Source: a virus
Reading direction: 5' to 3' (one strand)
IMG/VR virus record: IMGVR_UViG_3300027777_000073
Span: 1 to 37,523 of that record
DNA length: 37,523 bases
Each line of letters begins with the position of its first letter. The first letter of the stretch is position 1. The position numbers were made by a program, and so were the translations under genes. Positions 3,100 through 25,726 of this stretch are shown here, piece after piece. A model generated the notes under the pieces. That model saw nothing but the letters and a program-made list of their open reading frames with translations, had not been told where the DNA came from and did not search any database.

Positions 3100-3308
3100 T
3101 TGTTTCGCTCCACTTTAAGTTCGTATGATAGATCGTTGACTGCGTTTAATGCTTTCCTAGCCCATTCACGAGTGCCTGGTGTGCCACGACGAATTTCAGT
3201 ATAGGTAGGATCTTTCATCAGTTCTTCAACTATCCCTGTCGTGTGTGTTACTGGTGTCGTTGTTGCGCAACCACCAAGACTCACCACGCAGATCACGCTC
3301 AATAGCAT
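3096..3308 (-). CDS. Rz1-like outer-membrane lipoprotein (o-spanin candidate)
   Basis: From the ATG at 3308 the 70-aa product is a short hydrophobic leader ending in a lipobox (VSLGGC, Cys at residue 14), then a small polar domain. A GTG at 3329 in the same frame would give a 21-residue leader. The 5' part overlaps the 3' part of the Rz-like gene (3226-3414) in a different frame, which is the classical architecture of Rz/Rz1 spanin genes. Spanins join inner and outer membranes at the last lysis step in Gram-negative hosts. The exact start is uncertain. The order with a holin just upstream supports the role. Confidence 0.65.
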   Translation of the reverse strand: MLLSVICVVSLGGCATTTPVTHTTGIVEELMKDPTYTEIRRGTPGTREWARKALNAVNDLSYELKVERNK

Positions 3309-3414
3309 TGCGGTTATGCTTCCACTCACCTTCGATGTTCTGTACTCGCTTCTCTTTCCAATTCGGAATGAGGCGAAACACGGCTGCGATGATCTCAAGG
3401 ATTGCACGCAGCAC
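3226..3414 (-). CDS. Rz-like inner-membrane protein (i-spanin candidate)
   Basis: A 62-aa frame begins with GTG at 3414-3412. It has an N-terminal hydrophobic segment (AILEIIAAVFRLIP) followed by a charged, helical, periplasm-type region (NWKEKRVQNIEGEWKHNRN). This is the type II topology of Rz i-spanins, though 62 aa is short for the family. The gene starts 7 bases after the holin stop and overlaps the lipoprotein gene in another frame. I favour a compact spanin pair. The weak points are the GTG start and the lack of a clear Shine-Dalgarno. Confidence 0.55.
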   Translation of the reverse strand: MLRAILEIIAAVFRLIPNWKEKRVQNIEGEWKHNRNAIERDLRGESWWLRNNDTSNTHDRDS

Positions 3415-3421
3415 AAATAAA

Positions 3422-3592
3422 TTATTTAATATTCAGACCGACTGTCTTGAGGAAGTTTACAATCTTTTCCAAGAACGTATCATCCGCTGGGGTCGGTGTG
3501 AGTTTAACAATGATGCGAGCTGCGAGAACGATGCCACCAACAGCGGCTACGATCTCTTGCCAATTTGAAGTAATCCAATTCCATATGTTCAT
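3422..3592 (-). CDS. Holin-like small membrane protein
   Basis: This 56-aa protein starts with ATG at 3592. It has an N-terminal aromatic stretch (MNIWNWITSNW), one hydrophobic segment (EIVAAVGGIVLAARIIV), then the phrase KLTPTPADD and an amphipathic C-terminal helix. Short phage proteins with one membrane span followed by LTPTP-D-D are commonly annotated as holins. Holins open the inner membrane at a set time to let the muramidase out or to depolarise the cell. It is followed at once by the Rz-like and Rz1-like genes, making a lysis cassette placed between terminase and portal. The muramidase is far away at 20733-21470. Confidence 0.65.
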   Translation of the reverse strand: MNIWNWITSNWQEIVAAVGGIVLAARIIVKLTPTPADDTFLEKIVNFLKTVGLNIK

Positions 3593-4216: not shown

Positions 4217-5644
4217 CTATCCTCCTGGGTCAAATCCAGCCATGACAGGGTCGTGTGCCACCATCATTTCCTGAAGTGACTTCCAAGTTGGACGCTCTAT
4301 CTGAAATGTCAAGTCAAGACCGCTATTTGACGTACTCAAGCATAATGCTAGGGCATCGGCTCTATCTGGCGAGGCTATGCCTCTGGCTCGCATTGAGTCC
4401 TTGGACTCTACGCCCAGCTTGCCCTTGCTGTTAGTAATGGTACGCCTGCAAGTTAGTTGGGCAGTCAAGTCCTCGTCGTCTTCGGGTAGGATGATTTCTG
4501 CATCCTCAATCTTCTTGGCCATGTTGTACCACATCTCGGCTGATCTGTTGGTATAGGCATTGTTGTCGTAAGCCGTACCACCAAAGTTTACCCTATTGAC
4601 AGTCCATCCAGACTCAGCCAAGGCATCGCACATAACCATCCCCATCCCGCTTGCGTCAGCGTAAATGTTGTTGGCTTCCAACCCAGCCTTCTTAAACTCG
4701 ACTATAAACCTGCCTACCGCTGCCATCGTGTCTTTCTCGCGCCATGCAATCATAGGCAGGATCTTGTTGCCGTCACTTATGCAGATCACGTTTTGATCGC
4801 CACCAGCCGCAAAGTCCACGCCTGCTGTTCTTACACCTGGCCTAAATCTTGGTGGTGCGTTGTAGCAGTTCTGTAGCTGGTTTAGGTTGATGACTAAACT
4901 CTCCGCACCTATGTCAACAAACTCGCCATAGATCATGGATCGGGTTAGTGGATGTTTCTCGCCGTAACGCTGGGTTATTTCGTCAATCTGCTTCTGCGTT
5001 ATGTGTGGGCAGTCAAACGCTGTGACTGCGTGCTTTGACCACATATTTGCTTCCTTGGTGAACGCTCGATAGAACGCACCACTAGTCCCGCCTGGGCTGG
5101 ATGCGATTAGCAGCCTAGTTGGTTGACATCGGCTGATAGCCTCGAACAGCGGGTCGGCTACGGTCTTGGCTTCGTCTACCACCATCAGCAATGGATGGTA
5201 TTCGTGGTCTTCTGCGTGCCAGCCTTCAGCACGCCCAGGATCGGTCGCTGAGTAGCCTATAATGCGTGATGTGTTGCCATTGGGGTGGAGGTAGCGGATC
5301 TCGCCAGATGTCACTTCCCACGCACCCCCAAGTTTGGCAATGTGATTGCGCAGGCTAGGCCAAAGCTGGCTTTCGACTTGACGGAAAACGCCCGCCGTAG
5401 TTACAGCGATTGAGCGCGGGTAAACTAGCGCGTGCCATATCAGAATTGCCGAAATGACGGTGCTAGTCTTGCCAGAGCCGTTGGCTGCACGCAGGGCTAC
5501 GCGACAGTCCTTAGCCTCTAAATCACGCAGTACCTTGCGTTGCCAGTCATAAAGATTGATGCCAAGTACGTTAGATGCGAATGCGGCTGGTTTAGAGAGG
5601 TCTAGCAGAATCTCTTCTTGGCTACGCTTTGGAGGCTTTGGCAT
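4217..5644 (-). CDS. terL: Terminase large subunit (packaging ATPase-nuclease)
   Basis: The 475-aa protein has the two-domain layout of TerL. In the ATPase domain, YDWQ (32-35) is the adenine-motif region. AANGSGKTS (53-61) is the Walker A motif. LLMVVDEAK (152-160) is Walker B, with catalytic D157/E158. IASSPGGTSG is the coupling motif. In the C-terminal RNase H-like nuclease domain, acidic residues lie in GVDFAAGGDQN, IYADASGMG and RADALALCLS. It cuts concatemeric DNA and pumps it through the portal. The small terminase gene lies just upstream and the portal is downstream in the same operon. Length is normal and there are no frameshifts. Confidence 0.97.
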   Translation of the reverse strand: MPKPPKRSQEEILLDLSKPAAFASNVLGINLYDWQRKVLRDLEAKDCRVALRAANGSGKTSTVISAILIWHALVYPRSIAVTTAGVFRQVESQLWPSLRNHIAKLGGAWEVTSGEIRYLHPNGNTSRIIGYSATDPGRAEGWHAEDHEYHPLLMVVDEAKTVADPLFEAISRCQPTRLLIASSPGGTSGAFYRAFTKEANMWSKHAVTAFDCPHITQKQIDEITQRYGEKHPLTRSMIYGEFVDIGAESLVINLNQLQNCYNAPPRFRPGVRTAGVDFAAGGDQNVICISDGNKILPMIAWREKDTMAAVGRFIVEFKKAGLEANNIYADASGMGMVMCDALAESGWTVNRVNFGGTAYDNNAYTNRSAEMWYNMAKKIEDAEIILPEDDEDLTAQLTCRRTITNSKGKLGVESKDSMRARGIASPDRADALALCLSTSNSGLDLTFQIERPTWKSLQEMMVAHDPVMAGFDPGG

Positions 5645-5735: not shown

Positions 5736-6335
5736 CGTGGTGGTGTACTTGGCCAAGCTCTCTTTCCTTGGTTTGCGTCTTCTCATTGCTATATGCTTTG
5801 TCCTTCCAGAAACTTTTTGCGTTGGAGTGACAATGGTTTGTGTGCCATCTGTCGCACAATAAGTATTGTATTTAATTGCAGGAATAGGATTAACTGAAAC
5901 TGCCTTTGTATCAATAACTTGTGTCTTTTTTCTGCCAGCAATCCCAGCTAAAAGTGAGGCTAGGTTGGAGCTTATTCCGTGAGTGTGTTCTTGCGTAACT
6001 GACAGCCTAGCACTGGGTTGTGCGTGATTATAGATTCGCTCGGCCATCCACGCTTTTGCTTGCCACGATTTTGCACCAGCTAACTCTATGTCACGAAGGA
6101 GAGACAACTCGTGTTTTTTTCTGGCTGTCTCCACTCTACGAGCGAAATCTGGCTTTCTTTGCGACCAAGTGCGGATAGTGGAAGGATTCACGCCGACCAA
6201 TGCTCCCGCTTTTTCCAAAGTGAAACCAGATCCACACGCCGAGATTATTTCCTCGGCAATCTTCTCGGTAAATACTTCACGACCATTCTTGGCCTTTTCG
6301 ATAGGTGCAGTGGAGTCCGCTGCCGATTCATCCAT
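5706..6335 (-). CDS. Terminase small subunit-like, DNA-binding
   Basis: I chose the ATG at 6335 (MDESAADS; a TTG six bases upstream is also open), giving 209 aa. Residues about 18-85 resemble the N-terminal helix-turn-helix of small terminases (FTLEKAGALVGVNPSTIRTW). This is followed by a long helical segment (KPDFARRVETARKKHELSLLRDIE) and a WQAKAWMAERIYN motif common in HTH-type TerS proteins. TerS recognises the packaging site and loads TerL. The C-terminus is basic then P/T-rich (TTTPPTTPPAP) and falls in a G-rich tract whose length could be misassembled. It is the first gene of the leftward packaging operon, next to the divergent early promoter. Confidence 0.8.
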   Translation of the reverse strand: MDESAADSTAPIEKAKNGREVFTEKIAEEIISACGSGFTLEKAGALVGVNPSTIRTWSQRKPDFARRVETARKKHELSLLRDIELAGAKSWQAKAWMAERIYNHAQPSARLSVTQEHTHGISSNLASLLAGIAGRKKTQVIDTKAVSVNPIPAIKYNTYCATDGTQTIVTPTQKVSGRTKHIAMRRRKPRKESLAKYTTTPPTTPPAPI

Positions 6336-6372
6336 CTGCAAAAATTACCATATCCCAGGCAGAAAAAAAGTG

Positions 6373-6401
6373 TTGACCTAATAGGCAAGCAGATATAGTA
6401 T
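6373..6401 (+). promoter_or_regulatory. Sigma70-like promoter for the rightward early operon
   Basis: TTGACC at 6373-6378 matches the -35 consensus at 5 of 6 bases. A 17-base spacer leads to TAGTAT at 6396-6401, a 4 of 6 match to -10. Transcription would start near 6408 and read a roughly 57-base leader into the gene at 6465. It lies in the divergent gap between the small terminase start and the plus-strand operon, and fits recognition by host RNA polymerase. Confidence 0.6.
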
Positions 6402-6464
6402 GCATTTTATCGAGGGAGATCCGATAGGAACTTCCGAGGTAAAAAGAAAAGAAAGGAAACACAA

Positions 6465-6650
6465 ATGAAAAAACTAGAAGTTATGGATATAGGCGGTGAT
6501 GTTGGTTTCGTTCACAATGGCATCTTCATTGAAAACCCATTTATATCCGAGTGCGGAAGGTTTGATGTAGATCCGTTGAAACACTATGGATTGACGCTCA
6601 AAAAGATTATTGAGATATTTGGCAAGGATTACGAAAGGCTATTGAGCTAA
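6465..6650 (+). CDS. Hypothetical protein, 61 aa, first gene of early operon
   Basis: I do not recognise it. The product starts MKKLEVMDIGGDVGF and is a small mixed-charge soluble protein ending KIIEIFGKDYERLLS. A ribosome binding site (AAAGGA) sits 7 bases before the ATG in a purine-rich leader that recurs before two other genes of this operon. It is the first gene behind the predicted promoter at 6373-6401. Small proteins made first in infection often act on host functions, but nothing in the sequence shows a target. Confidence 0.65.
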   Translation: MKKLEVMDIGGDVGFVHNGIFIENPFISECGRFDVDPLKHYGLTLKKIIEIFGKDYERLLS

Positions 6651-6655
6651 AGCGA

Positions 6656-6696
6656 TCAGACCCCGAACACATCCGCAAGGGTGTGTTTCGGTCTGG
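6656..6696 (+). terminator. Long stem-loop with GCAA tetraloop after the 61-aa gene
   Basis: A near-continuous stem of about 15 pairs, with G-T wobbles, one mismatch and one bulge, closes on a GCAA (GNRA-type) loop at 6675-6678. It starts 6 bases after the stop codon. There is no T-run downstream, so it looks more like an mRNA processing or stability element, or a weak attenuator, than a classical terminator. Confidence 0.45.
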
Positions 6697-6744
6697 CCGA
6701 TAGGCTGGAACAAAAGAAACCAAAAAGAAAGGAAACGACACAAT

Positions 6745-7113
6745 ATGACAACAGCAGAACCAAAAAAGAAGAATGACAATGGCCTTGCCGATATGGTCAA
6801 GAACATTGCCCAAACGATTGAGTGTGGAGAATACGAAACAGAATCCGAGGAGGGTTGCAACGCATACGATTATCTATCTAGTGCGTTGGATTTTCAATGG
6901 ATCGTGCAAAACGATCTCACCTTTATTGGTGCGAGGATTCTTGTGGCGTTCGGAGGTCCGAATATTTGGATTGATACAGATAAAAAGAAGGTGGAGGGAT
7001 ATTGGTGGGGCGATTATGCTTGCGCCGATTATTCCGAGGACTCGCTGGGCTTGCAAGAATGCGTTGAGGAGTTGTATCAATCGAGACTCGATGAGGCAAA
7101 GAGAAGGAAATGA
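6745..7113 (+). CDS. Hypothetical protein, 122 aa, early operon
   Basis: I do not recognise it. It starts MTTAEPKKKN and has a polar N-terminus, a central segment with many aromatic and acidic residues (YWWGDYACADYSED), and a C-terminal helix ending DEAKRRK. A ribosome binding site (AAAGGA) lies 11 bases before the ATG in the recurrent purine-rich leader. Its stop codon overlaps the ATG of the next gene (ATGA at 7110-7113). No membrane span or signal peptide is seen. Confidence 0.7.
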   Translation: MTTAEPKKKNDNGLADMVKNIAQTIECGEYETESEEGCNAYDYLSSALDFQWIVQNDLTFIGARILVAFGGPNIWIDTDKKKVEGYWWGDYACADYSEDSLGLQECVEELYQSRLDEAKRRK

Positions 7114-7241
7114 TTTGCTTCTCAATCTACTCACGGAACGGCTCATTCGTCTGCCGTTTTATGGAACGCAGCAAAGCTGAAATGTGGAGGATGTTCCACG
7201 GCATCCAAGATTATGTAATCAGAAAAGAGGTATGGCGATGA
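7110..7241 (+). CDS. Hypothetical protein, 43 aa, early operon
   Basis: The 43-aa frame (MICFSIYSRNGSFVCRFMER and on to EVWR) overlaps the preceding stop and the following start by ATGA at both ends. This is strong evidence for translational coupling within a compact operon. It has two cysteines and a basic, aromatic composition. The function is unknown. Confidence 0.5.
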   Translation: MICFSIYSRNGSFVCRFMERSKAEMWRMFHGIQDYVIRKEVWR

Positions 7242-7327
7242 ATTCACCGCAAATCTATTCGCTCGGGTTATTGCACGGAGGACTCCTTTTAGGATTCGTC
7301 TGGCTAGTCTGGCCAAAGCGGAAATAA
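7238..7327 (+). CDS. Tiny membrane peptide, 29 aa, early operon
   Basis: The frame begins at the ATG at 7238, overlapping the previous stop. It encodes MNSPQIYSLG followed by one hydrophobic span (LLHGGLLLGFVWLVW) and a basic end (PKRK), the pattern of a single-span inner-membrane peptide with a cytoplasmic C-terminus. Its small size makes chance coding possible, but the ATGA coupling and clean topology argue that it is real. It could alter the host membrane or block superinfection; that is speculation. Confidence 0.45.
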   Translation: MNSPQIYSLGLLHGGLLLGFVWLVWPKRK

Positions 7328-7333
7328 GTTTCC

Positions 7334-7367
7334 CCTCGTCTCCCATCGTAGCGGATGGGAGGAGAGG
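7334..7367 (+). promoter_or_regulatory. Intergenic hairpin with GTAGCG loop, copy 1
   Basis: CTCCCATC (7340-7347) and GATGGGAG (7354-7361) form a perfect 8-bp stem around the loop GTAGCG. Pairing extends outward to 7334-7367 with one mismatch. It follows the 29-aa gene. The same hexaloop closes the hairpin at 7758-7793, so this is probably a specific RNA element. Confidence 0.5.
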
Positions 7368-7420
7368 TCAAACCCTATCGGGATGGCCTAAAGAAACAGA
7401 AAAGAAAGGACACACGCACA

Positions 7421-7753
7421 ATGAGCAAAAACTACTGGGAATCACACAACATAGGAAAACAAGTTGGAGAATATGCAGATAAGCTTGGGTTGGATTGCAT
7501 CGCAACTGGAGGGAACTGCGATTTCATTGTGAAATCATTGAGCAAAGAAAACGAGATGATGGCAGTTTTAGTTTCAGAGTTTTGCGAATGTCCAGACACT
7601 CTGAATGAGGTTGCTTGGGTATCAATTAAGCTCAATTCGTCTTGGGTTGAGTCTGTGGAGTTAAAGTTCGAGTCAGCTCGAAAGGCGATGCAGTTTATGG
7701 CAAATATTAAGGATTCTAGTGCTGTTAATATTGGGGAACTTGTAGCCAGCTAG
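7421..7753 (+). CDS. Hypothetical protein, 110 aa, early operon
   Basis: I chose the ATG at 7421 (MSKNYWES), preceded by AAAGGA and the recurrent purine-rich leader; an in-frame ATG at 7355 would lie inside the hairpin. The product is a small soluble protein with a patterned middle (MMAVLVSEFCECPDTLNEVA) and a C-terminal helix (FESARKAMQFMANI). I do not recognise the family. It stands between two hairpins that carry the same loop, so it may form its own mRNA segment. Confidence 0.7.
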   Translation: MSKNYWESHNIGKQVGEYADKLGLDCIATGGNCDFIVKSLSKENEMMAVLVSEFCECPDTLNEVAWVSIKLNSSWVESVELKFESARKAMQFMANIKDSSAVNIGELVAS

Positions 7754-7757
7754 TCCC

Positions 7758-7793
7758 TCCTCGATCCACCTTGTAGCGGAGGTGGACGGAGGA
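7758..7793 (+). promoter_or_regulatory. Intergenic hairpin with GTAGCG loop, copy 2
   Basis: TCCACCTT (7765-7772) pairs with GAGGTGGA (7779-7786), with one G-T pair, around a GTAGCG loop. A 2x2 internal loop and five further pairs (TCCTC/GAGGA) extend it to 7758-7793. The stem sequence differs from copy 1 while the loop is identical. Confidence 0.5.
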
Positions 7794-7822
7794 TGGATTT
7801 GGGCTTTCGCCTGGACATCCTA

Positions 7823-8090
7823 ACAAACGGCAGCGTAGCCATAATCCGGTTGCGTATGTACAGCAAACGGAAGCATAGCCATAAGGAGACAAATGGACGA
7901 ACAGCAAATTATCAAAGCCTACCTTTCGCGCCTGGGGCGTAAAGGCGGGAGCGTAAAAGGCCCGCAAAAGGTGCGACCCAGAGAACACTATCAGAAGGCG
8001 GTAGGTATCCGCTGGGCTAAGTATCGGGAGCGTCAAACGGAATCGCAGGCATCAAAACGGTAGCGTAGCCTTTTGCGGGAGCGTTAAATG
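7823..8090 (+). repeat. Six direct repeats of CGGNAGCRT (iteron-like array)
   Basis: Copies in one orientation start at 7828, 7868, 7946, 8025, 8058 and 8076. Copies 1, 2 and 5 continue as TAGCC; copies 3, 4 and 6 continue as a run such as AAAA, CAAA or TAAA. Copies 1 and 2 lie in a longer shared block (about 7823-7844 and 7863-7884). The array overlaps a 56-aa gene and ends where the plus- and minus-strand operons converge. Confidence 0.6.
7893..8063 (+). CDS. Small basic protein, 56 aa, end of early operon
   Basis: A strong ribosome binding site (AAGGAG) precedes the ATG at 7893. The product (MDEQQIIKAYLSRLGRKGGS, then basic and ending QASKR) is rich in R, K, G and Q. It resembles small phage and bacterial proteins with an LG-KGG-S motif, often of unknown function and possibly nucleic-acid binding. 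Part of the direct-repeat array lies inside this coding region, so some of the repeat signal could come from codon usage, but the copies outside the gene cannot be explained this way. Confidence 0.55.
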   Translation: MDEQQIIKAYLSRLGRKGGSVKGPQKVRPREHYQKAVGIRWAKYRERQTESQASKR

Positions 8091-8099
8091 GCAGTCTAG

Positions 8100-8486
8100 T
8101 TATTTTTTGGCAATGTAAAGAACTACGTTATCTGTATTCTGTTCTGGAAATATGCTTTCGCCATTTGAGTCTATGTAATAAATAGATCCCGACCTGGTGG
8201 GATTCCCAAGCACTATTGCAAGCCAATCAAAGTCACTATGAGAACACGCAGAATGTCTTATTTTTATGTCTCCTGTTTTGCTTCCAGTTATATGACCAGT
8301 TTTAACTTCAACTCTTTTCAGTTCGCCATTGTTAAGCATAACTATTAGATCGCACCTACATGACGGACTCAAGGCTCTGAATACACTCAAACCTTTTGCC
8401 ATCAAATCGTTTGAAACATAGAGTTCGTTTATTGCGCCTACTGTTCCAGTGTTGGCGATATAATCATGAGCTTTTTCGTTTAGCAT
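8100..8486 (-). CDS. PD-(D/E)XK nuclease-like protein (PDDEXK_10 type)
   Basis: The 128-aa protein carries a compact PD-(D/E)XK signature. An N-terminal helix has GAINELYV (E21), then CDLIV (D46) and RVEVKTG (E60, K62). This fits the small endonuclease-like family first seen with group I introns. It is the last gene of the leftward replication operon and converges with the plus-strand early operon. The similar protein at 19966-20355 heads the same operon. It could be a DNA-repair, resolvase or host-DNA-degrading nuclease; a role in mobility is possible, but no intron or interrupted gene is seen nearby. Confidence 0.65.
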   Translation of the reverse strand: MLNEKAHDYIANTGTVGAINELYVSNDLMAKGLSVFRALSPSCRCDLIVMLNNGELKRVEVKTGHITGSKTGDIKIRHSACSHSDFDWLAIVLGNPTRSGSIYYIDSNGESIFPEQNTDNVVLYIAKK

Positions 8487-8489
8487 AAT

Positions 8490-8678
8490 CTATTTACCTA
8501 TAAAACAGCAACACGCCTTGTTGCCAAGTTCTAACTGTTCAACCCTGAACTTGACGCTTAAACTCAATTCTTGGGGTTTTGTTTTAGTTCCGCATCTTTT
8601 ACCATTTTGTTTATCCCGACATCGTGGCGAGGCTTCTGGGTGGCAAGGAATCGATTTTAAAGCCTTTTTTCTTTTCAT
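8490..8678 (-). CDS. Small cysteine-rich protein, 62 aa
   Basis: I start it at the ATG at 8678, 4 bases after the upstream stop; in-frame sequence upstream would overlap the neighbouring gene. The product (MKRKKALKSIPCHPEASPRC) is basic, with cysteines at several points including a terminal CCCF. The spacing could suit metal binding, but no standard zinc-finger pattern is complete. There is no clear ribosome binding site, so re-initiation after the upstream gene is likely. Function unknown. Confidence 0.5.
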   Translation of the reverse strand: MKRKKALKSIPCHPEASPRCRDKQNGKRCGTKTKPQELSLSVKFRVEQLELGNKACCCFIGK

Positions 8679-8682
8679 GTAA

Positions 8683-8919
8683 CTACCAATTGCGGCAGCT
8701 CCAGTAGCGGGCCGAAGTCTTGGCTGGTGGTTTAGAGTCACACTGATGCCTAGCCCTAAAGCTCTTGCGCCTTGCTGGACTGCTCTTCTTGATGGTCATT
8801 TTTGGGTCGCCATAACGAATAACCTTGCTTTGGCCATTCTGACAGGCTCGGACTACAAACTTCTTGCGCTCTCCAGGTGTACGCCTAGGGCTGTTACATG
8901 GTAAGTCTCTAGGATTCAC
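8683..8919 (-). CDS. Small basic phage protein with RKSFRARH-C-ARYWSC motif
   Basis: The 78-aa product has a basic N-terminus and then a segment KSSPARRKSFRARHQC, followed by ARYWSCRNW at the end. From memory, small proteins with this RKSFRARH-x-C...ARYWSC-x-W pattern recur in phages and viruses of aquatic samples without known function. The conserved H, C and W residues suggest metal or nucleic-acid binding. The start overlaps the stop of the coiled-coil protein gene (8916-9227). Confidence 0.7.
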   Translation of the reverse strand: MNPRDLPCNSPRRTPGERKKFVVRACQNGQSKVIRYGDPKMTIKKSSPARRKSFRARHQCDSKPPAKTSARYWSCRNW

Positions 8920-9227
8920 GAGTCATCTACCTCATCAGCGTCAAAAGCCTCAGGACAGGCATCGTGGAGCGATTGGAGTGCCTTCTGGTGCGCTTCAAAG
9001 AAGCCTGAGAGCCTATTGACCTCATCAGTCAGCCCTTCCCACTGGTGTTCGAACACTTCAAAAGAGCAGTTTGCGTCCATATCATCGACTAATTGACCCA
9101 AGAGCCTAAGAACGCCGTGTAGTTGAGCGTTCTCCTTTTGAAGCAGGCAAATAAATCTATTTGCCAGCTTCAACTGCTCTCGGTCTTGGTTCAGAACCCA
9201 CCCTTCTTGGCTTTCATCAGTCGCCAT
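8916..9227 (-). CDS. Predicted coiled-coil protein, 103 aa
   Basis: The product starts MATDESQEGW. It has a long helical stretch with heptad-like hydrophobic spacing (LKLANRFICLLQKENAQLHG, then LRLLGQLVDD) and an acidic C-terminus (DADEVDDS). No catalytic motif is seen. Its first 37 bases overlap, in another frame, the end of the small gene at 9191-9316, so a later start is possible, but the next methionine lies well inside the protein. Function unknown. Confidence 0.65.
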   Translation of the reverse strand: MATDESQEGWVLNQDREQLKLANRFICLLQKENAQLHGVLRLLGQLVDDMDANCSFEVFEHQWEGLTDEVNRLSGFFEAHQKALQSLHDACPEAFDADEVDDS

Positions 9228-9316
9228 ACTCTAGGCTTAATGGTGCTGTTCTTCTTGCTGCGGCTAGACCCAGCCTTCCGGCGGGCGTTGATGTTTGCGT
9301 ATAATCCTTGTTTCAT
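9191..9316 (-). CDS. Small basic protein, 41 aa (MKQGLYANINARRKAG type)
   Basis: The frame begins with ATG at 9316 and encodes MKQGLYANINARRKAGSSRS, followed by KKNSTIKPRVW and a basic end. The GLYANINA-(K/R)RKAG start is one I recognise from many small phage proteins of unknown function. It is the first gene after the non-coding stretch at 9317-9559 and overlaps the next gene by 37 bases. Confidence 0.65.
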   Translation of the reverse strand: MKQGLYANINARRKAGSSRSKKNSTIKPRVWRLMKAKKGGF

Positions 9317-9447
9317 TTTGCTATTGTACCACACCCTCCACCTGATCACCAACTCCGTTGTTCAGCAGGTGCGAACGTGTGCGAGCCAGCCCAGCCAGCC
9401 TTGTTTGTTCATTTAGGAAAACGCTACGGAAAGAACGCAGTGGTAGT

Positions 9448-9482
9448 GGGGAAGGGACGGGACAAAAGGAGTCCCTTTCCCC
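9448..9482 (-). terminator. Strong GC-rich stem-loop downstream of primase-helicase gene
   Basis: GGGGAAGGGAC (9448-9458) pairs with GTCCCTTTCCCC (9471-9482) with one bulged base, giving about 11 pairs and a 12-base loop. It lies about 80 bases after the primase-helicase stop on the minus strand. No T-run follows on that strand, so it is not a textbook intrinsic terminator. Confidence 0.4.
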
Positions 9483-9502
9483 TACTTTCCTTTGCGAATT
9501 AT

Positions 9503-9520
9503 TCCTTATATATATAAGGA
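9503..9520. promoter_or_regulatory. Perfect 18-bp palindrome, AT-rich core
   Basis: TCCTTATATATATAAGGA is its own reverse complement. Such a site suits a dimeric regulator, or an easily melted -10-like or origin element, since TATATA appears on both strands. No good -35 partner is seen on the minus strand. Confidence 0.4.
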
Positions 9521-9559
9521 GTCTGACTGCTCTATAAATGATAGTGCCTTGAAAGTGGA

Positions 9560-11518
9560 TTAGAAAGTGGTCTGATTGGCAATATATAAGCCGCTGTCAG
9601 ACAATATCTTGTTAGCTTTATTAAGGCGTTTAAGATACCTATAAAACGTGCTTTCCGATACTTCCAACTTTTCGATGATATGACGACATAAATCACCTGC
9701 TTGCCACTGCTTGCTACCCATTTCAGTTAAGAACCTTTTATCGTCAACAGCCTTGTGTGCTCCTGGCTTCTTTAGCTTGTCTGGATTGAGTGCAAAGTTG
9801 GCTTGGAACAGTGGATAATGCCACTGAACTACAAAGCTATCTACTGGCGGGAAGTTACGCAGTGTGATGTCACAAGTGTAAGTCTTCTCATCCTCCTCGT
9901 GGGCAGTCAGAACGACCAACGTATCTGGATTACGAGCGAAAACGCCCGACCCACTGAAGCGGTCAATCGACTCTGACCCACTCTTGTTTCCCTTGCTAAA
10001 ATGGTGTGACAGAATGATTGACAGATTGTGGCGTGTGGCTAGGTACTCAAACTCGTTCATTAGGCTTGACATATCGCCTGCGCTGTTCTCATCCCTCTCA
10101 CCCATCAGCATATAGTTTGGATCTAGGATGATCGCTTGGTAGCCCTTACCTTCAATCTGCTTTTCGATCATTGGACGGATGAGAGTCAAGTCGGCAGCGT
10201 GACCTCGGAGCGTCCACACATCAAAGTCATCGGCCTTTTCTTCTAGTCCTTTGGCCTTGATAACATCAGCCAAGCGATTGCGGAACGACCACTCTTGTAT
10301 TTCGAAATTGATAAACAACACCCGCGACATCTTGCACTGCTGCCCCCACCAAGTCACACCAGCATGTAACGAAAGGGCTAAGTCAATTAGACTCCAACTC
10401 TTGAACGCCTTGCTACCTCCACCCAGCAACATCTTCCCGCCTCTATGCAGCATTCCCTCAATTAACGTCTCTGGTGCGGGTAAGTCTTCCTTAACAAGTT
10501 GTGCATAAGATTTAATTGGCGGCCACTCGTCCGTCTTCGGCTTGATACCAAGTGCTACGGCTGGTTCAATCATCGGTAGTTCATTCATCTTTCCTCCCTT
10601 GTAGAACCATAACAGGCTCTGCATTTTGTCGTTTCTTTTTGCCCCAGGTATCCGAACTGGCTGACTAGGCTTGAATGTTGCTGGGTCACATCCAAGCGGA
10701 ATAAGAAATGTTTTCAACTGGTCAATCAATTCCTTGTTTGACGGCATATCAAACCATCCATGCAAACTCTTTCCACCAGTATCCACAACGGCACGTAACC
10801 GAAGGTTGAATAAATCACGCATCAATTGGAACACCGCGCCGATCTCTGGCTTGGTTAGAACATCGGACTCGACAACCAGAAATATCCTATGTTCAACTGT
10901 ATCGTTCGACCTGCTGATCGTCCCATGCTTGTACGTTGCGCCAGTCGTGTACTGACCTATTGGTGCATCCAACTTCTTCCAATCCCAAGCTGACCTAAAG
11001 TTCTGCGGATGCCTCCCGCTGTCCTTGACATCACCAATCCAGATATTGTCAGCCACATTAAACATAGATAAGAACAAGTGATAGTCTTGCGCTGGATCGT
11101 CTAGCTTAACTGGACTCTCCTCGTACATATCCGCTGGGTCCCAATTGTAATGTGTCAAGTATCGTTGCCTATTCGACTCTGCAATCGTCTTGATTCTATC
11201 CAGCACCTCGGCGTGCGGGTCTTTCTTAATGACTAGCTTGGGCGCAGCAGTACCCCCCGACATAATGTTGACTGGCTTGTAAAGCACATCGCTGGATATA
11301 GCTCGGCGTAACTTGCGGTTGACCTCGTCACGATACGGAGTGCAACTCGTATGCCAGCAAAATATAGTCGGCGCGCCATCCACAAACACCGTTGTGTCAC
11401 GGATGCGAGTGTGGCTTGTATGTGCAGCCTCACCAGGACACTTGCACAGCCCATGGTTCTCGGACTGCCAATCCACTTGGCCTACGATCTCTTCAGCTTG
11501 GCGTTGTGCTGTTGTCAT
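9560..11518 (-). CDS. Primase-helicase: zinc motif, AEP-like primase, RecA-like ATPase, C-terminal HTH
   Basis: The 652-aa protein reads as four parts. Residues 25-59 hold a zinc-binding-like set (CKCPG with H33, then CWHTSC). Residues about 210-300 look like an archaeo-eukaryotic primase fold: VVESD (215-219), the SxH motif KSLHGWF (S251, H253) and RIPGAKRND (289-297). Residues about 350-560 are a RepA/AAA_25-type ATPase, with Walker A variant GGGSKAFKS (366-374, K373) and Walker B AIILDPN. The C-terminal 60 residues form a winged-helix-like domain (VSESTFYRYLKRLNKAN). It should prime and unwind phage DNA. No DNA polymerase is encoded, so the host enzyme is presumably recruited. It is near the end of the leftward operon. 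Confidence 0.85.
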   Translation of the reverse strand: MTTAQRQAEEIVGQVDWQSENHGLCKCPGEAAHTSHTRIRDTTVFVDGAPTIFCWHTSCTPYRDEVNRKLRRAISSDVLYKPVNIMSGGTAAPKLVIKKDPHAEVLDRIKTIAESNRQRYLTHYNWDPADMYEESPVKLDDPAQDYHLFLSMFNVADNIWIGDVKDSGRHPQNFRSAWDWKKLDAPIGQYTTGATYKHGTISRSNDTVEHRIFLVVESDVLTKPEIGAVFQLMRDLFNLRLRAVVDTGGKSLHGWFDMPSNKELIDQLKTFLIPLGCDPATFKPSQPVRIPGAKRNDKMQSLLWFYKGGKMNELPMIEPAVALGIKPKTDEWPPIKSYAQLVKEDLPAPETLIEGMLHRGGKMLLGGGSKAFKSWSLIDLALSLHAGVTWWGQQCKMSRVLFINFEIQEWSFRNRLADVIKAKGLEEKADDFDVWTLRGHAADLTLIRPMIEKQIEGKGYQAIILDPNYMLMGERDENSAGDMSSLMNEFEYLATRHNLSIILSHHFSKGNKSGSESIDRFSGSGVFARNPDTLVVLTAHEEDEKTYTCDITLRNFPPVDSFVVQWHYPLFQANFALNPDKLKKPGAHKAVDDKRFLTEMGSKQWQAGDLCRHIIEKLEVSESTFYRYLKRLNKANKILSDSGLYIANQTTF

Positions 11519-20732: not shown

Positions 20733-21470
20733 TTAGCCGCCACCAAAAGCATTAAGCCTGTTGTTAATTCTATTCTCAAGTCCAGCAATAAACTTCTTTC
20801 TTCTTGGATCGGCAGCAACCCTTGCTCTTTCATCATTTAATTGAGCTTGGCTTGCTGCAATCATAAGTTGCTTTGGATTTACGCCTTCAATACCAGCAAG
20901 CGTTTTTGGTCCAATCGCTCCGTCAACTGCAACCTTGACTCCAAGCGAGTTTAGACCCTCTTGGATGTACTTTGTTGCACCGCCCAAACCTCGATTAAAT
21001 GCAAGATCCTGCGTGAATGGTTGGATGGCTGGTGGAAGTTTGGATACAAGCGGTGCTGTGTATTGGCTGATATATTCAGCCGCCGCACTCTCCCTATCTT
21101 GGGCTGGCAAGCCTGCGATTTTTCTGAATGCTTCTGGGTGGTATCGGTCATTGATTCCAGCTACCTCATAATCTCCACCCATATCACCAGCAGGCAATGC
21201 GTACACTGAAAGATTGCCCTTCTTGTCACGCCGACCCTCCCAATTAACTGTTGTTTTGGCTGCATTCACCAAATCAACATTTGAAACATTTGTTGCGGAC
21301 TTTGATTCAGGCTCTATAACGTCAAATCCAAGATCAATTTTTGGCTGAACGGACTCTTGGGGTTTAGTCTGAATTATATTAGTTACTGCCTGCTGTCGAA
21401 TCGGCTGTTGTACTGGAGCAATTGTTGGTTTTGGAATGTTTGCCTGAATCATCTTTTCGTAGCGTTCCAT
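20733..21470 (-). CDS. Peptidoglycan hydrolase, GH108-like with PG_binding_3-like end; probably virion-associated
   Basis: The 245-aa protein has an N-terminal Q/P-rich tail carrying DLGFDVIEPE (46-55), a motif shared with the giant internal protein upstream. A catalytic region follows: NWEGRR with probable catalytic E78, then GGDYEVAGINDRYHPE (98-113) and AFNRGLGGATKYIQE. A C-terminal peptidoglycan-binding part has DGAIGPKTL (183-191) and an F-x-x-G-L-x-x-R end (about 229-236). It should cut the glycan strands, during entry, lysis or both. There is no signal peptide or membrane span, so release would need the holin. It is the last gene of the structural operon, with a strong ribosome binding site (AAGGAG). 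Confidence 0.75.
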   Translation of the reverse strand: MERYEKMIQANIPKPTIAPVQQPIRQQAVTNIIQTKPQESVQPKIDLGFDVIEPESKSATNVSNVDLVNAAKTTVNWEGRRDKKGNLSVYALPAGDMGGDYEVAGINDRYHPEAFRKIAGLPAQDRESAAAEYISQYTAPLVSKLPPAIQPFTQDLAFNRGLGGATKYIQEGLNSLGVKVAVDGAIGPKTLAGIEGVNPKQLMIAASQAQLNDERARVAADPRRKKFIAGLENRINNRLNAFGGG

Positions 21471-21471
21471 T

Positions 21472-24400
21472 TTATTTCTCCTTTGGTGTCAAGTAATCCC
21501 TATTGTATTTCAAGAACTGCCTTTTTCCATCTTCAGCACCGCGCTCATACGCCTTTTCTAATGCCTTTACCTTAAACTCTGGTTCCATTCCATCAAATGT
21601 TGCGCTCTGGAATAGATTATCCACAAGAGCCTTTCTTCTTTGGCCAACATACTCCTGATAAATTGCGTACTGGTTCTCATCAAGCTGGTAAGTAATTTTC
21701 TTGTCCATAACATTCCTTGACGGAACGGATGGCAACACATCAGCATTTCCAGTTTCCTTCCATAGCCTATATAGGGCAAGATTGGATTCGTCGCTTGGGA
21801 CTATTCTTGACCTAGTGAAATCAAGGAAATTGTATAGAAACGGATTCGCTCCTTCTGGAGTCTGCTTAACTGGATTCCCCCACATATCTCTTTTGAGTGG
21901 CAATTCCTCTGCTCCAATCGCCTCGCGCGCAAACTCCGGCATCTTTGATTTGAGAACATTGGCGAATAGTTGCAGGCTATCATCTGTTTTTGAGTCAATC
22001 ATATTTTCCCGACTTGCCTTATTGAAGGCTTGCAATGTGTTGGGGAATGGTATTGATGATATTGTTCCGTATAGTGATTCTAAATAGCTGTCGTAGTCTT
22101 CTTTTGAGATTGCATTAAGAAGAGTGTTTGTACTTTTTAAGAATGTTTGATTGAGCGTATAGCTTGCAACTGACGGCAAGCCTTTAAGGGTTACATCAAG
22201 AACATCCTCTAGTAATGCAGATCCTTCATTCTTGCTTAATACATTTGCATAAACATTAAAGATTGTTCCAAGGTATCCAAAATTCTCATAGCTTTTTATG
22301 TCATCTCCAGTTTGGATTGCTGGATCTTCTCCATTCAATAGCCTATTTAGTCCGGACATATTGATTGTATTTGGAGGCTGTGTTTCGTATTGGATTCCTC
22401 TTTCCTTTGCTGACTTCGGGGCAGATCCAACAATAACACCAGCTCGATATAGGGCGGCAGCCACCCCTCCAATTACTGCTCCAACTATTCCTTTAGCCGC
22501 AGCTTCAAGTGCTTTTTTTCTGTCTCCTTTAACTGTATAATATGCGCTTTTGGAAAAGGCCAATCCTGGCACTGCAACATCAACAACGTCTGTAACAACA
22601 TTAACTGGTGTCTTTGTGTATGGCGCAACGATTGACTTGGCAAGTGGCCCAACAATAGGAATAGCTTTTACAGCATTTGCTACAACACCAACTACTGCTG
22701 TAAGTTTTGTGTCTTGTTGGAATGTTGCCTCTGCCGCCTTGTTTGATATTCCCTTTAACTCTGTCTTTGTAGGGAATCTTACGCTTGCTAAAACTTCCTT
22801 TGGTGATTTTCCTGCTAAAATGGCTTGCTCTGCAAGAAGTCTGCCCTCTGCAAATCCTCTTGCTGGAACGTCTCCAAGCGTTAATACCCTTCCTACTGGT
22901 TCTGTATATGAGCCGATTATCCCCTCGGCAAGCTTCCGCACTCGATCAATAAGTGCAATGTTACCTTTTGCATTCGTAGCCATGTCTTTCCCAGTAAATG
23001 CTTGAGCCAAAGATTTGAATACAGTAAATCCCTTAACTCCTTCTCCAGCTAGAGCAGATGACGCTGGAATGCCCTCACCCAAGAATGCCCTAATTGCTTC
23101 CTTTGTCTTTTCAGCACCACGAATCATTGCACCCCTTGTTGTGAGTGCAGATTGTGTCATCGTCCTTGGTTGCTTGGTCACATAACTTATTACTGCATCT
23201 CCAGCGGTTGCTAATGACCTAACTCCAAGCTGGCCGACTGCTCTGGCTACGTTAAATATTGGATTCTTAACAAGAGATAATGGACTTAAAAGCGTAAGCT
23301 GTATGGCTTGTGGAAGTATTTCTCCAACAATTTTTTTAGGCAGAATACTATCCGAGTATCTTTGCAATTTAGTTACTGCGCTTGCGGCAACATTCCTTGC
23401 ATTTTCAGCCGCAACAGCGGCCTCATCAGTTGGGTTTGATCTGTAAAATTTTTCTGCTTCAACTAGGTTCGTTTTTGCTTGTTTGCTTGCATTAAATAAT
23501 CGAAGAATATTATCTTGAACGCTTTTAGGTATATTTCTTTTTGCTGCTTCCGCTGCTTTTGATATGGTTGCTAAATACCCAGCAGGCGTGTTTATGTACT
23601 CACGGACATTCCTTAACGAAACACCAGCCAGCGATGCGGCTTTAGTAAATTCATCCCAATTGATTGCAGCAGATGCTGGGTCTGCATCAATCTGCCTTGC
23701 GGATAATATTGCATTCGCTCCTGCTCTTTCTGCATCATCATACGCTGACGAAGTAATGCTTCTTCTTGCAATTGCATTTAGTTCATCATCCGAAAGTTCC
23801 TCAAGGTTTCCCTTAATAGCACCTAGTGGAACATTCTGTCTTACTGTGCTTGGCTGAAGCGCAACCTCTGCCTTGAATGGCTCTGGTGCTTTTTCAGACT
23901 TCAATACTCTTTCTGCTGTTCTAGCTATTTTAGATCCTTCTGGAACTTCTGGCATCTTAAACTCTGGGCGTACTGTGCCAGACTCAAAGCCAGCCTCGCC
24001 AACTACGCCTGGGCGAATTGGTTGCTGGCCTTCAATAGTCCCGATAACCTCTGATGGTTGCGGTTTTACCTGCAACGATGGAGCAATTTTCGGCTGAAAC
24101 AATTGTTGAAATTTGTCAATAGCTTTTGTTGGACCAGCAAGCCCTGCGCCGACAACCATAGGCGTGGCAATCTCAAGAGACTTTGTTGTTATTGGGAACA
24201 TCGCAATATCGGCCTCGCGCATTCTTTGGTAGTCAGCGTAACCTTGTTCTCCAGCCAAGATTCTTGCAAGTCCAGCTTGCCCCATTTCGCCTGCTTTGTA
24301 TCCGGCTGCACCTCCAGCCAATCCTCCAGCAAGTATCCCAACTGGTCCAGCAGGCGCGCCAGCAGCACCTCCAAGGATTGTTCCAGCAACAGCACTAGCT

Positions 24401-24987
24401 CCAGGTATAATCTGTTCTCCAACCGACCTTAACGATGCACCAACAAGCGTTGGTGGCTTTTCCTCAATGCGAACAACCCGCCCATCCTTGGCCTTCCCAA
24501 CAGCAAATCCAACGCCTTTTTCTTTGTCAAATCCAGAAGAGACAGTAAGCACGCCTTCGTTCATTGCCTTCCTAACGGCTGGCAATGCTGCTGGTTGGAT
24601 CATTCCCTTTTGGATGGCTTCCTCGGTTGGAAGGTATCCTGCGGATATAGACCCATCTGGCCTTGTTTCTGGAGGCATTGCTTCAAGCGCATCAGTTGCC
24701 TTGAGCATTGCATCCTCTTGAGACATACCAGACTCAAGATTTTTATTAAACTCTGTAGTTAGTAGGTTTGCTCGCTCTGGAGCATATACATCTAGCGGAT
24801 TTCCACCTTGCGAAACATAATCCCGCTTGATTTGGGACAAATACTGCTTGTCTGGTTCGATTACTTCAAATGATTCCGAAGGTGTTGGTTGATCATTTTC
24901 TGGCTCAATAATGTCAAATCCAAGATCCTGCTTATTTGCATTTACCTCTGGCTCAATAATGTCAAACCCCAGGTCGGGACTTGCCAT
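21472..24987 (-). CDS. Giant internal virion (ejection-type) protein, 1171 aa
   Basis: The 1171-aa product is by far the largest of the window. Its N-terminus carries three copies of an IEPE-type motif: DLGFDIIEPE (5-14 and 21-30) and SFEVIEPD (about 39-46). Glycine/alanine-rich hydrophobic parts lie near residues 190-240 (GTILGGAAGAPAGPVGILAG), 775-805 (VVGVVANAVKAIPIVGPL) and 840-865 (AVIGGVAAALYRAGVIVG); the rest is long helical sequence. Size, position after the tail genes and amphipathic Ala/Gly stretches match internal virion proteins that podoviruses eject to form a trans-envelope channel. No transglycosylase motif is seen here; the muramidase gene follows next. The exact fold is unknown. 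Confidence 0.7.
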   Translation of the reverse strand: MASPDLGFDIIEPEVNANKQDLGFDIIEPENDQPTPSESFEVIEPDKQYLSQIKRDYVSQGGNPLDVYAPERANLLTTEFNKNLESGMSQEDAMLKATDALEAMPPETRPDGSISAGYLPTEEAIQKGMIQPAALPAVRKAMNEGVLTVSSGFDKEKGVGFAVGKAKDGRVVRIEEKPPTLVGASLRSVGEQIIPGASAVAGTILGGAAGAPAGPVGILAGGLAGGAAGYKAGEMGQAGLARILAGEQGYADYQRMREADIAMFPITTKSLEIATPMVVGAGLAGPTKAIDKFQQLFQPKIAPSLQVKPQPSEVIGTIEGQQPIRPGVVGEAGFESGTVRPEFKMPEVPEGSKIARTAERVLKSEKAPEPFKAEVALQPSTVRQNVPLGAIKGNLEELSDDELNAIARRSITSSAYDDAERAGANAILSARQIDADPASAAINWDEFTKAASLAGVSLRNVREYINTPAGYLATISKAAEAAKRNIPKSVQDNILRLFNASKQAKTNLVEAEKFYRSNPTDEAAVAAENARNVAASAVTKLQRYSDSILPKKIVGEILPQAIQLTLLSPLSLVKNPIFNVARAVGQLGVRSLATAGDAVISYVTKQPRTMTQSALTTRGAMIRGAEKTKEAIRAFLGEGIPASSALAGEGVKGFTVFKSLAQAFTGKDMATNAKGNIALIDRVRKLAEGIIGSYTEPVGRVLTLGDVPARGFAEGRLLAEQAILAGKSPKEVLASVRFPTKTELKGISNKAAEATFQQDTKLTAVVGVVANAVKAIPIVGPLAKSIVAPYTKTPVNVVTDVVDVAVPGLAFSKSAYYTVKGDRKKALEAAAKGIVGAVIGGVAAALYRAGVIVGSAPKSAKERGIQYETQPPNTINMSGLNRLLNGEDPAIQTGDDIKSYENFGYLGTIFNVYANVLSKNEGSALLEDVLDVTLKGLPSVASYTLNQTFLKSTNTLLNAISKEDYDSYLESLYGTISSIPFPNTLQAFNKASRENMIDSKTDDSLQLFANVLKSKMPEFAREAIGAEELPLKRDMWGNPVKQTPEGANPFLYNFLDFTRSRIVPSDESNLALYRLWKETGNADVLPSVPSRNVMDKKITYQLDENQYAIYQEYVGQRRKALVDNLFQSATFDGMEPEFKVKALEKAYERGAEDGKRQFLKYNRDYLTPKEK

Positions 24988-24991
24988 TGTG

Positions 24992-25726
24992 TTATCTCAT
25001 CCTTACTTTGCCGTAACCTTGAATGTAGACAATATCTCCAGATTTTGCACCAGCTTTAATTGCCTCATCTTTTGAGGCATAGGAAGGAACGGCTTGCTGT
25101 CTTTGTGGCTGTGCGGTTGGTTGGGCTGTTGGTTGCTGTGGCGCAGGCTTTGCAACCGAAGGCATTCCGTAACTTTGAGGCATTTGAGTGTCCTTTAATG
25201 CCTGCATTTGCACGCCAGCAACATTTCGCTTTTGCTCGGTTTCCATTATCTTTTTCTCAATATCACTTGTTTGCTGTGAATATGGTTTTCCAAATAATGC
25301 TCCAGGCAACCAGTCTGGTCCTGGCTTCTCGCCACCCATCCATCCTGCTTTAGCGGATTGTATGTCAGCCTTCTTTTGCAAGTTCTGCTCAAGCTCAACC
25401 TCTGCTTTAGCCATATCAGCCTGATGCTTTGTAAACTTTCTTGATTGCTCTAGCTCCCAATCAACTTGGCGTTGTTTAGCCCATTGAGCCTTCTGCTCTG
25501 GTGGCAATGCCTTGAATGGAATCTGCTCTCCGTTTACATCAATCTTGAAATCTTCAAATGGAAGAACTTGATTTGATCTTATTGCTTCCTTCTCTTGCTG
25601 ATTCTGGGTGTATGCGTTTAACTGTGCATTCTGAAGTTGCTCGCTTAATGCGGCTCTACGCAATGCATCTTTATCCCCAAAAGTTTGAGGAAACATTGCC
25701 GCCAAATCCATTGTAATTTTACCCAT
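24992..25726 (-). CDS. Internal virion protein candidate, 244 aa
   Basis: The product starts MGKITMDLAAMFPQTFGDKD. It has a long helical Q/E/K-rich part (NQQEKEAIRSNQVLPFEDF, AEVELEQNLQKKADIQ), a PQ-rich linker (APQQPTAQPTAQPQRQQ) and a small C-terminal domain (DIVYIQGYGKVRMR) that looks like a short SH3-like strand set. It lies between two large internal-type proteins. Structural or ejection-complex roles are likely from the position. I do not recognise a specific family. Confidence 0.65.
   Translation of the reverse strand: MGKITMDLAAMFPQTFGDKDALRRAALSEQLQNAQLNAYTQNQQEKEAIRSNQVLPFEDFKIDVNGEQIPFKALPPEQKAQWAKQRQVDWELEQSRKFTKHQADMAKAEVELEQNLQKKADIQSAKAGWMGGEKPGPDWLPGALFGKPYSQQTSDIEKKIMETEQKRNVAGVQMQALKDTQMPQSYGMPSVAKPAPQQPTAQPTAQPQRQQAVPSYASKDEAIKAGAKSGDIVYIQGYGKVRMR

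Follow-up and report, generated by a model that had tools for sequence, protein, structure and literature searches.

The viral record IMGVR_UViG_3300027777_000073, analysed here over a window of 37,523 nucleotides (37.5 kb), carries terminase, portal and major capsid genes and reads mostly on the minus strand. We focus on three of its genes, transcribed in the order P0003 (244 amino acids, aa), a giant P0002 (1171 aa) and a muramidase-like P0001 (245 aa), and on a ten-residue motif, hereafter the tag, that is common to the giant and the muramidase. In related phages, the class of the tag changes together with the class of a short module at the C terminus of P0003. Coordinates are collected in Table 1.

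The preliminary description of this DNA, made from its letters, had reported DLGFDIIEPE twice and SFEVIEPD once within giant residues 1-46, DLGFDVIEPE at muramidase residues 46-55, and likeness of the sites at the DNA level. All of this was confirmed: the third giant copy reads SESFEVIEPD, which holds SFEVIEPD, and tag 2 is identical to the muramidase tag at 27/30 bases and to tag 1 at 26/30. In a six-frame search, the tag pattern appeared at only four places in the window, three in the giant and one in the muramidase. The shared motif is far above chance. Among the 780 pairs formed by 40 window proteins, giant and muramidase gave the top ungapped ten-residue match, with a BLOSUM62 score of 52 versus 38 for the runner-up pair, and the best score in 300 shuffles of the muramidase was 39. 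As a side observation, the window differs from its relatives at tag 2, with DLGFDIIEPE in place of [DN]AG[FY]DVIEPE; the first 15 bases of tag 2 equal those of the muramidase tag and its next 14 those of tag 1, a pattern that a very short conversion event would leave.

P0001 has a peptidoglycan-acting domain, matching PF09374 above cut-off and the endolysin family phrog_315. A further NCBIfam N-acetylmuramidase match was weak, partial and far below cut-off, and no catalytic-domain Pfam family matched. The giant had no relative in Pfam, PHROG or NCBIfam and no credible PDB chain match; there were zero matches to it among 50,697 phage records, and a profile of it found no match in prokaryote genomes. 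Neither the tag nor the module peptides had a credible match in isolate phages. Relatives of the giant and muramidase genes are present in IMG/VR; of 241 muramidase relatives there, the 80 best were retained. AlphaFold2 assigned very low confidence to giant residues 1-46, as in disordered tails, within a model that is poor as a whole (mean 47.6).

Across these relatives, the tag occurs in four versions: class T1 (..GFDVIEPE), class T2 (..EFVPDE), class T3 (..GYEVLEDE) and class T4 (..LEFVPE). Giant and muramidase agreed in class in 76/76 readable distinct combinations, with 33 tagged (17 of class T1, 1 of T2, 6 of T3 and 9 of T4), 43 tagged in neither protein and 0 mixed; closely related phages are not independent, and the tagged set amounts to nearer four independent lineages, with the untagged lineages in addition. 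For this count, giants were recognised by a few hand-set start patterns, identical N termini were merged, and muramidases whose giant start lay off the contig were omitted; 10 of the 86 combinations in all were without a readable muramidase. The preliminary description would have been contradicted by a motif missing from the homologues of both proteins. This was not observed: close homologues do retain it, and those without it are without it in both.

A loose tag expression, run over the open reading frames (ORFs) of 9 records and the window, returned the giant, the muramidase and scattered chance-like matches, and missed the class T2 muramidase and some copies. A recurrent match in a ~600-aa protein was rejected as a further tag carrier, the same stretch being present in an untagged phage; other matches to the tag DNA pattern fell in tail-sheath-like proteins and unrelated ORFs.

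Within the muramidase, the tag stands out from its surroundings. Over 18 distinct N termini of class T1 muramidases, mean pairwise identity was 0.92 in the core, 0.86 in the tag, 0.61 in the linker that precedes it and 0.42 in the one that follows. Most substitutions in the tag were conservative (F/Y, V/I), with variation among synonymous codons. A tag conserved between diverging linkers, with varying synonymous codons, is the pattern that selection on the peptide would leave. In a tree of 59 representatives of 76 muramidase catalytic domains, whose bootstrap had not settled, class T2 was interleaved with class T1 (L022 with L064, 100/100; L065 with L056, 98/70), which requires at least two changes of tag type on well-supported branches. 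Thus, tag type is not tied to the catalytic domain.

Two sister phages, G005 (class T1) and G001 (class T2), present a natural swap of the tags. The pair is 100% identical in portal, 99.8% in terminase, 97.7% in major capsid, 99.1% in a 324-aa protein, 98.6% in a 652-aa protein, and 100% in proteins of 152 aa and 232 aa. Within the cluster, three sites are sharply different: the giant tags (27% identity over residues 1-46), the muramidase tag linker (8-28% over residues 13-62, with 8% at 41-53, versus 98% over residues 63-160) and the end of P0003 (31% over residues 213-245, the last 33, and 48% over the preceding 22, versus 98% over residues 1-150). The tags of both proteins and the P0003 C terminus have been replaced in coordination.

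Neighbouring genes could match by descent alone, if the stretch from giant N terminus to muramidase linker were one inherited block, or if gene conversion homogenised the tags without function, as the near identity of tag 2 and the muramidase tag in the window might suggest. A sliding-identity comparison of the window and 14 loci (10 of class T1 and 5 of class T2, two of the latter nearly identical) argues against such hitch-hiking. In the class T2 phage L017, class T1 phages reach at best 48-57% identity at region positions 1035-1305 and other class T2 sequences 74-100%; at positions 4815-4860, the values are 46-52% and 82-89%. Between these patches (3.4 kb between tags), L017 is a mosaic, over most of which class T1 phages match at least as well as other class T2 sequences. 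It has identical 90-base windows with the class T1 phage L016 at positions 3285-3510, along with a short stretch near 3015-3060 that is closer to the class T2 locus L068. The giants of L017 and L068 have the tag patch in common and not much of the core. With a class T1 mosaic between the tag patches of a class T2 phage, the agreement of the tags is not accounted for by linkage or by one inherited block. The linkers around the giant and muramidase tags are also unlike, so neither tag region was copied from the other. We consider descent or conversion without function very improbable.

Table 1. Features of the tag cluster in the window
Feature	Coordinates	Strand	Basis
Giant P0002, 1171 aa, probable internal/ejection protein	21472..24987	(-)	translation; N-terminal tail with three tags
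Tag 1, DLGFDIIEPE, giant residues 5-14	24946..24975	(-)	translation
Tag 2, DLGFDIIEPE, giant residues 21-30	24898..24927	(-)	translation
Tag 3, SESFEVIEPD, giant residues 37-46	24850..24879	(-)	translation
Muramidase-like peptidoglycan hydrolase P0001, 245 aa	20733..21470	(-)	PF09374, phrog_315
Muramidase tag, DLGFDVIEPE, residues 46-55, within Pro/Gln-rich linker	21306..21335	(-)	translation; conserved between varying linkers
PG_binding_3 domain of muramidase, residues 165-234	20769..20978	(-)	Pfam scan
P0003, 244 aa, directly upstream of giant; coiled-coil body and C-terminal module; proposed receptor	24992..25726	(-)	
P0003 C-terminal module VPSYASKDEAIKAGAKSGDIVYIQGYGKVRMR, proposed tag-binding module	24995..25090	(-)	class co-varies with tag class; predicted fold
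Pro/Gln-rich linker of P0003, mostly low confidence	25094..25186	(-)	residues 192-211 at predicted local distance difference test (pLDDT) <50
P0004, 630 aa, directly upstream of P0003	25735-27627	(-)	

At its C terminus, P0003 has a Pro/Gln-rich linker followed by a module of ~33 residues, which reads ..YKSRDEAIQGGAKAGDIVYIPGVGKVRIK in class T1, ..YNTPEDALKAGVKEGDRVIIGGRAGTFKRPK in class T2, ..YADEASAKAAGAKVGDIIILQN..PAKVRLTR in class T3 and ..FNSAAEARAAGIKPGQTVIIKGQRGTLQPKR in class T4. Module class equalled tag class wherever the gene upstream of a tagged giant was readable; the two change together, with one exception class in which a module occurs without a tag. A DNA pattern for the class T1 module found 20 stretches in IMG/VR, and 20/20 also had a class T1 tag; class T2 module stretches sit ahead of a class T2-tagged giant in 3/3 cases. 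AlphaFold2 predicted the module as folded behind the low-confidence linker, with a helix (219-224) and a hairpin (232-235/239-242) at pLDDT 75-83. A Foldseek search with the P0003 model returned nothing at E <= 0.001. In prokaryote genomes, the module pattern occurred at 6 places, and of the 4 loci read none lay in a recognisably phage-like gene setting. The suggestion in the preliminary description that the motif is a docking tag with a shared partner gains support from classes that agree in all readable combinations, switch together in near-identical phages and match a module of a third protein.

That partner could still be something other than the module. The docking signal might be shared and its type-specific partner might be a host protein, met after ejection or in assembly, or another phage protein, with the module merely adjacent. 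Several points weigh in this direction or otherwise against the module as receptor. In class T1, the P0003 3' end lies 4 bases from the giant start, so that linkage may keep the module with the giant tags, which lie in one replaced patch with it; the muramidase tag alone is distant. In six untagged combinations (giants MAFRPI/MAFRPL), a related module, GDxVIIGGxxGILEP, is present and no tag is recognisable. The motif expressions were set, and the classes named, after the sequences had been seen. Class T2 contributes one combination with both proteins on one contig (the near-identical contigs L015 and L017); elsewhere, its muramidase occurs alone in L022 and L036 and its giant alone in L068 and others. 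Inside class T1 there is no residue-level matching, as in L005, where the giant reads NAGYDVIEPE and the muramidase DLGFDIIEPE. Lastly, it is by gene order only that the giant is read as probably an internal protein.

Against a different partner stand the structural proteins: portal, scaffold-like protein, capsid and the other listed structural proteins are 98-100% identical between the class T1 and T2 sisters, so none is likely to be type-specific. A host protein is a less likely type-specific partner because many other genes hardly differ between the two swapped phages. The module-tag pairing is also repeated in an unrelated phage contig, L198, where a 318-aa protein with a class T1-type module, and little else in common with P0003, is directly followed by an ORF that bears YDLLEPE, GYDIIEPE and GYDVIEP before it runs off the contig end. 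Classes T2 and T4, similar in their tags, are likewise similar in their modules. We therefore regard a partner other than the module as unlikely.

The reading we favour, and hold to be probable, is a tag-receptor code in which giant and muramidase are brought together by the P0003 module, so that the muramidase is probably loaded along with the ejection proteins. The motif would be a short linear docking tag, displayed three times on the disordered tail of the giant and once in the flexible linker of the muramidase. One partner would recognise all of these tags, most likely the module that P0003 carries on its Pro/Gln-rich linker. The tag, acidic-aromatic in character (Phi-[DE]-[VIF]-[VIL]-x-x-E), could dock against the basic beta-hairpin of the module, perhaps as an added strand. 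P0003 would in this way tie the giant and the separate muramidase into a single internal complex, which would be assembled into the head and leave it as a unit on ejection. There would be at least four tag/module classes, kept matched by selection as the remaining parts of the genes recombine. Extended to podovirus-like phages at large, the proposal becomes a modular code for assembling the ejection complex, in which the C-terminal module of a small internal protein would bind matching tags on all cargo, with at least four exclusive classes swapped as sets by recombination. That wider version is tentative, at close to even odds.

The shared tag suggests that the muramidase may be carried within the virion. 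Alternatively, P0001 might be an ordinary late endolysin whose tag governs lysis activity or storage instead of virion loading. Its endolysin PHROG match would fit, as would the finding that the scanned window proteins hold no other peptidoglycan hydrolase except for a partial amidase-PHROG match of a 615-aa protein. An endolysin role leaves three tag copies on a giant structural-cluster protein unexplained, and both roles could coexist; as a replacement for virion loading we judge it quite unlikely. The tags might also mark where a maturation protease with phage-dependent specificity cuts, given that acidic near-N-terminal motifs resemble the targeting peptides of phage T4 internal proteins, which are cleaved. 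No protease was matched among the scanned window proteins, a cut needs no three tandem sites, and the co-change of the P0003 C terminus would be left unexplained, making this the least probable alternative, with very little in its favour.

Two other candidates for a type-specific partner were tried and rejected. P0004 has unrelated replacements among class T1 phages, and its counterpart is 98.6% identical between a class T1 and a class T2 phage. The first hairpin of P0003 (residues 61-70) lies inside the part that is 98% identical between these two phages. P0004 is itself swapped among class T1 phages for proteins of different length and sequence (e.g. 525 aa in L030), with neighbouring genes alike.

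Further variation surrounds the cluster in relatives. The class T1 giants of L035 and L030 (both 5851-9996) are 1382 aa long, with a ~210-residue insertion after residue ~315 that includes ..TKTFYHGSPATSIENIKSDARGLVFVSE. The insertion had no Pfam or NCBIfam match; by eye, we take it to resemble a phage ADP-ribosyltransferase-type domain. The related module of untagged combinations (upstream genes of L101, L106 and L044) ends ..GDMVIIGGRRGILEP, with no recognisable tag in giant or muramidase. In the untagged relatives L038, L046, L103 and L109, the giant begins with what resembles a beta-hairpin (KYEEVPGVGLVEFPDDTP; AFIEIDNIGKIEVPDN), and the protein encoded upstream of it ends NPKTGLLMK or DPATGKVIRVK. 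These starts and C termini are possibly further tag-receptor pairs.

The choice of proteins that are packaged in the head and ejected is known in few model phages only. The natural swap described here points to a signal and its likely receptor and reduces the question to binding between short peptides and a ~33-residue module. If the favoured reading is true, the tag would provide a sequence rule by which uncultured phages could be searched for more virion cargo, separate cell-wall hydrolases among it. Within the limited collection and wording searched, we found no account in the literature of such a tag-module match.

Known systems resemble this one in part. Encapsulin cargo-loading peptides are short peptides on a flexible tail that load an enzyme into a shell; their sequences are unrelated to the tag, and the receptor proposed here is not a shell protein. 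The 2052-aa giant bbp10 of Bordetella phage BPP-1 (L187:8770-14928) carries tandem N-terminal repeats, EFDAAVAGTL / PFDAAVAGVL, in the same layout as P0002 with a different motif. No second BPP-1 protein with the repeat motif was found. By analogy, this design hints that such codes may be widespread among phages.

Phage T7 gp16 brings peptidoglycan-cutting activity with a giant ejection protein as a fused N-terminal transglycosylase, and lysozyme activity moves between ejection proteins (reviewed in PMC8954989). In contrast to T7, the enzyme here has its own gene and would be attached through the tag; by Pfam and PDB sequence matching, the giant had no credible match to a gp16-type N-terminal lytic transglycosylase, and its fold model is poor. 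Phage P1 DarB is a giant ejected protein whose N-terminal 30 residues bring a reporter to the capsid; its receptor is not known, and no repeated motif common to a cell-wall hydrolase is described in the portion of that report used here (PMC9024508). The capsid targeting sequence (CTS) of phage T4 is a short signal common to otherwise different internal proteins and can load foreign proteins (PMC3012670). N-terminal capsid-targeting signals as such are therefore already known from phages T4 and P1, and it is plausible that the present motif is a new virion-targeting signal. It too is short, near-N-terminal and common to different, presumably internal proteins, with the muramidase copy at residues 46-55 and not at the extreme end. 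Unlike the CTS, the tag is tandem on one protein and linker-borne on the other, belongs to one of several classes that can be exchanged, and is accompanied by a module that is its candidate receptor. What sets the present case apart from these signals is a tag that is shared, multi-copy and class-switching, together with a candidate for its receptor.

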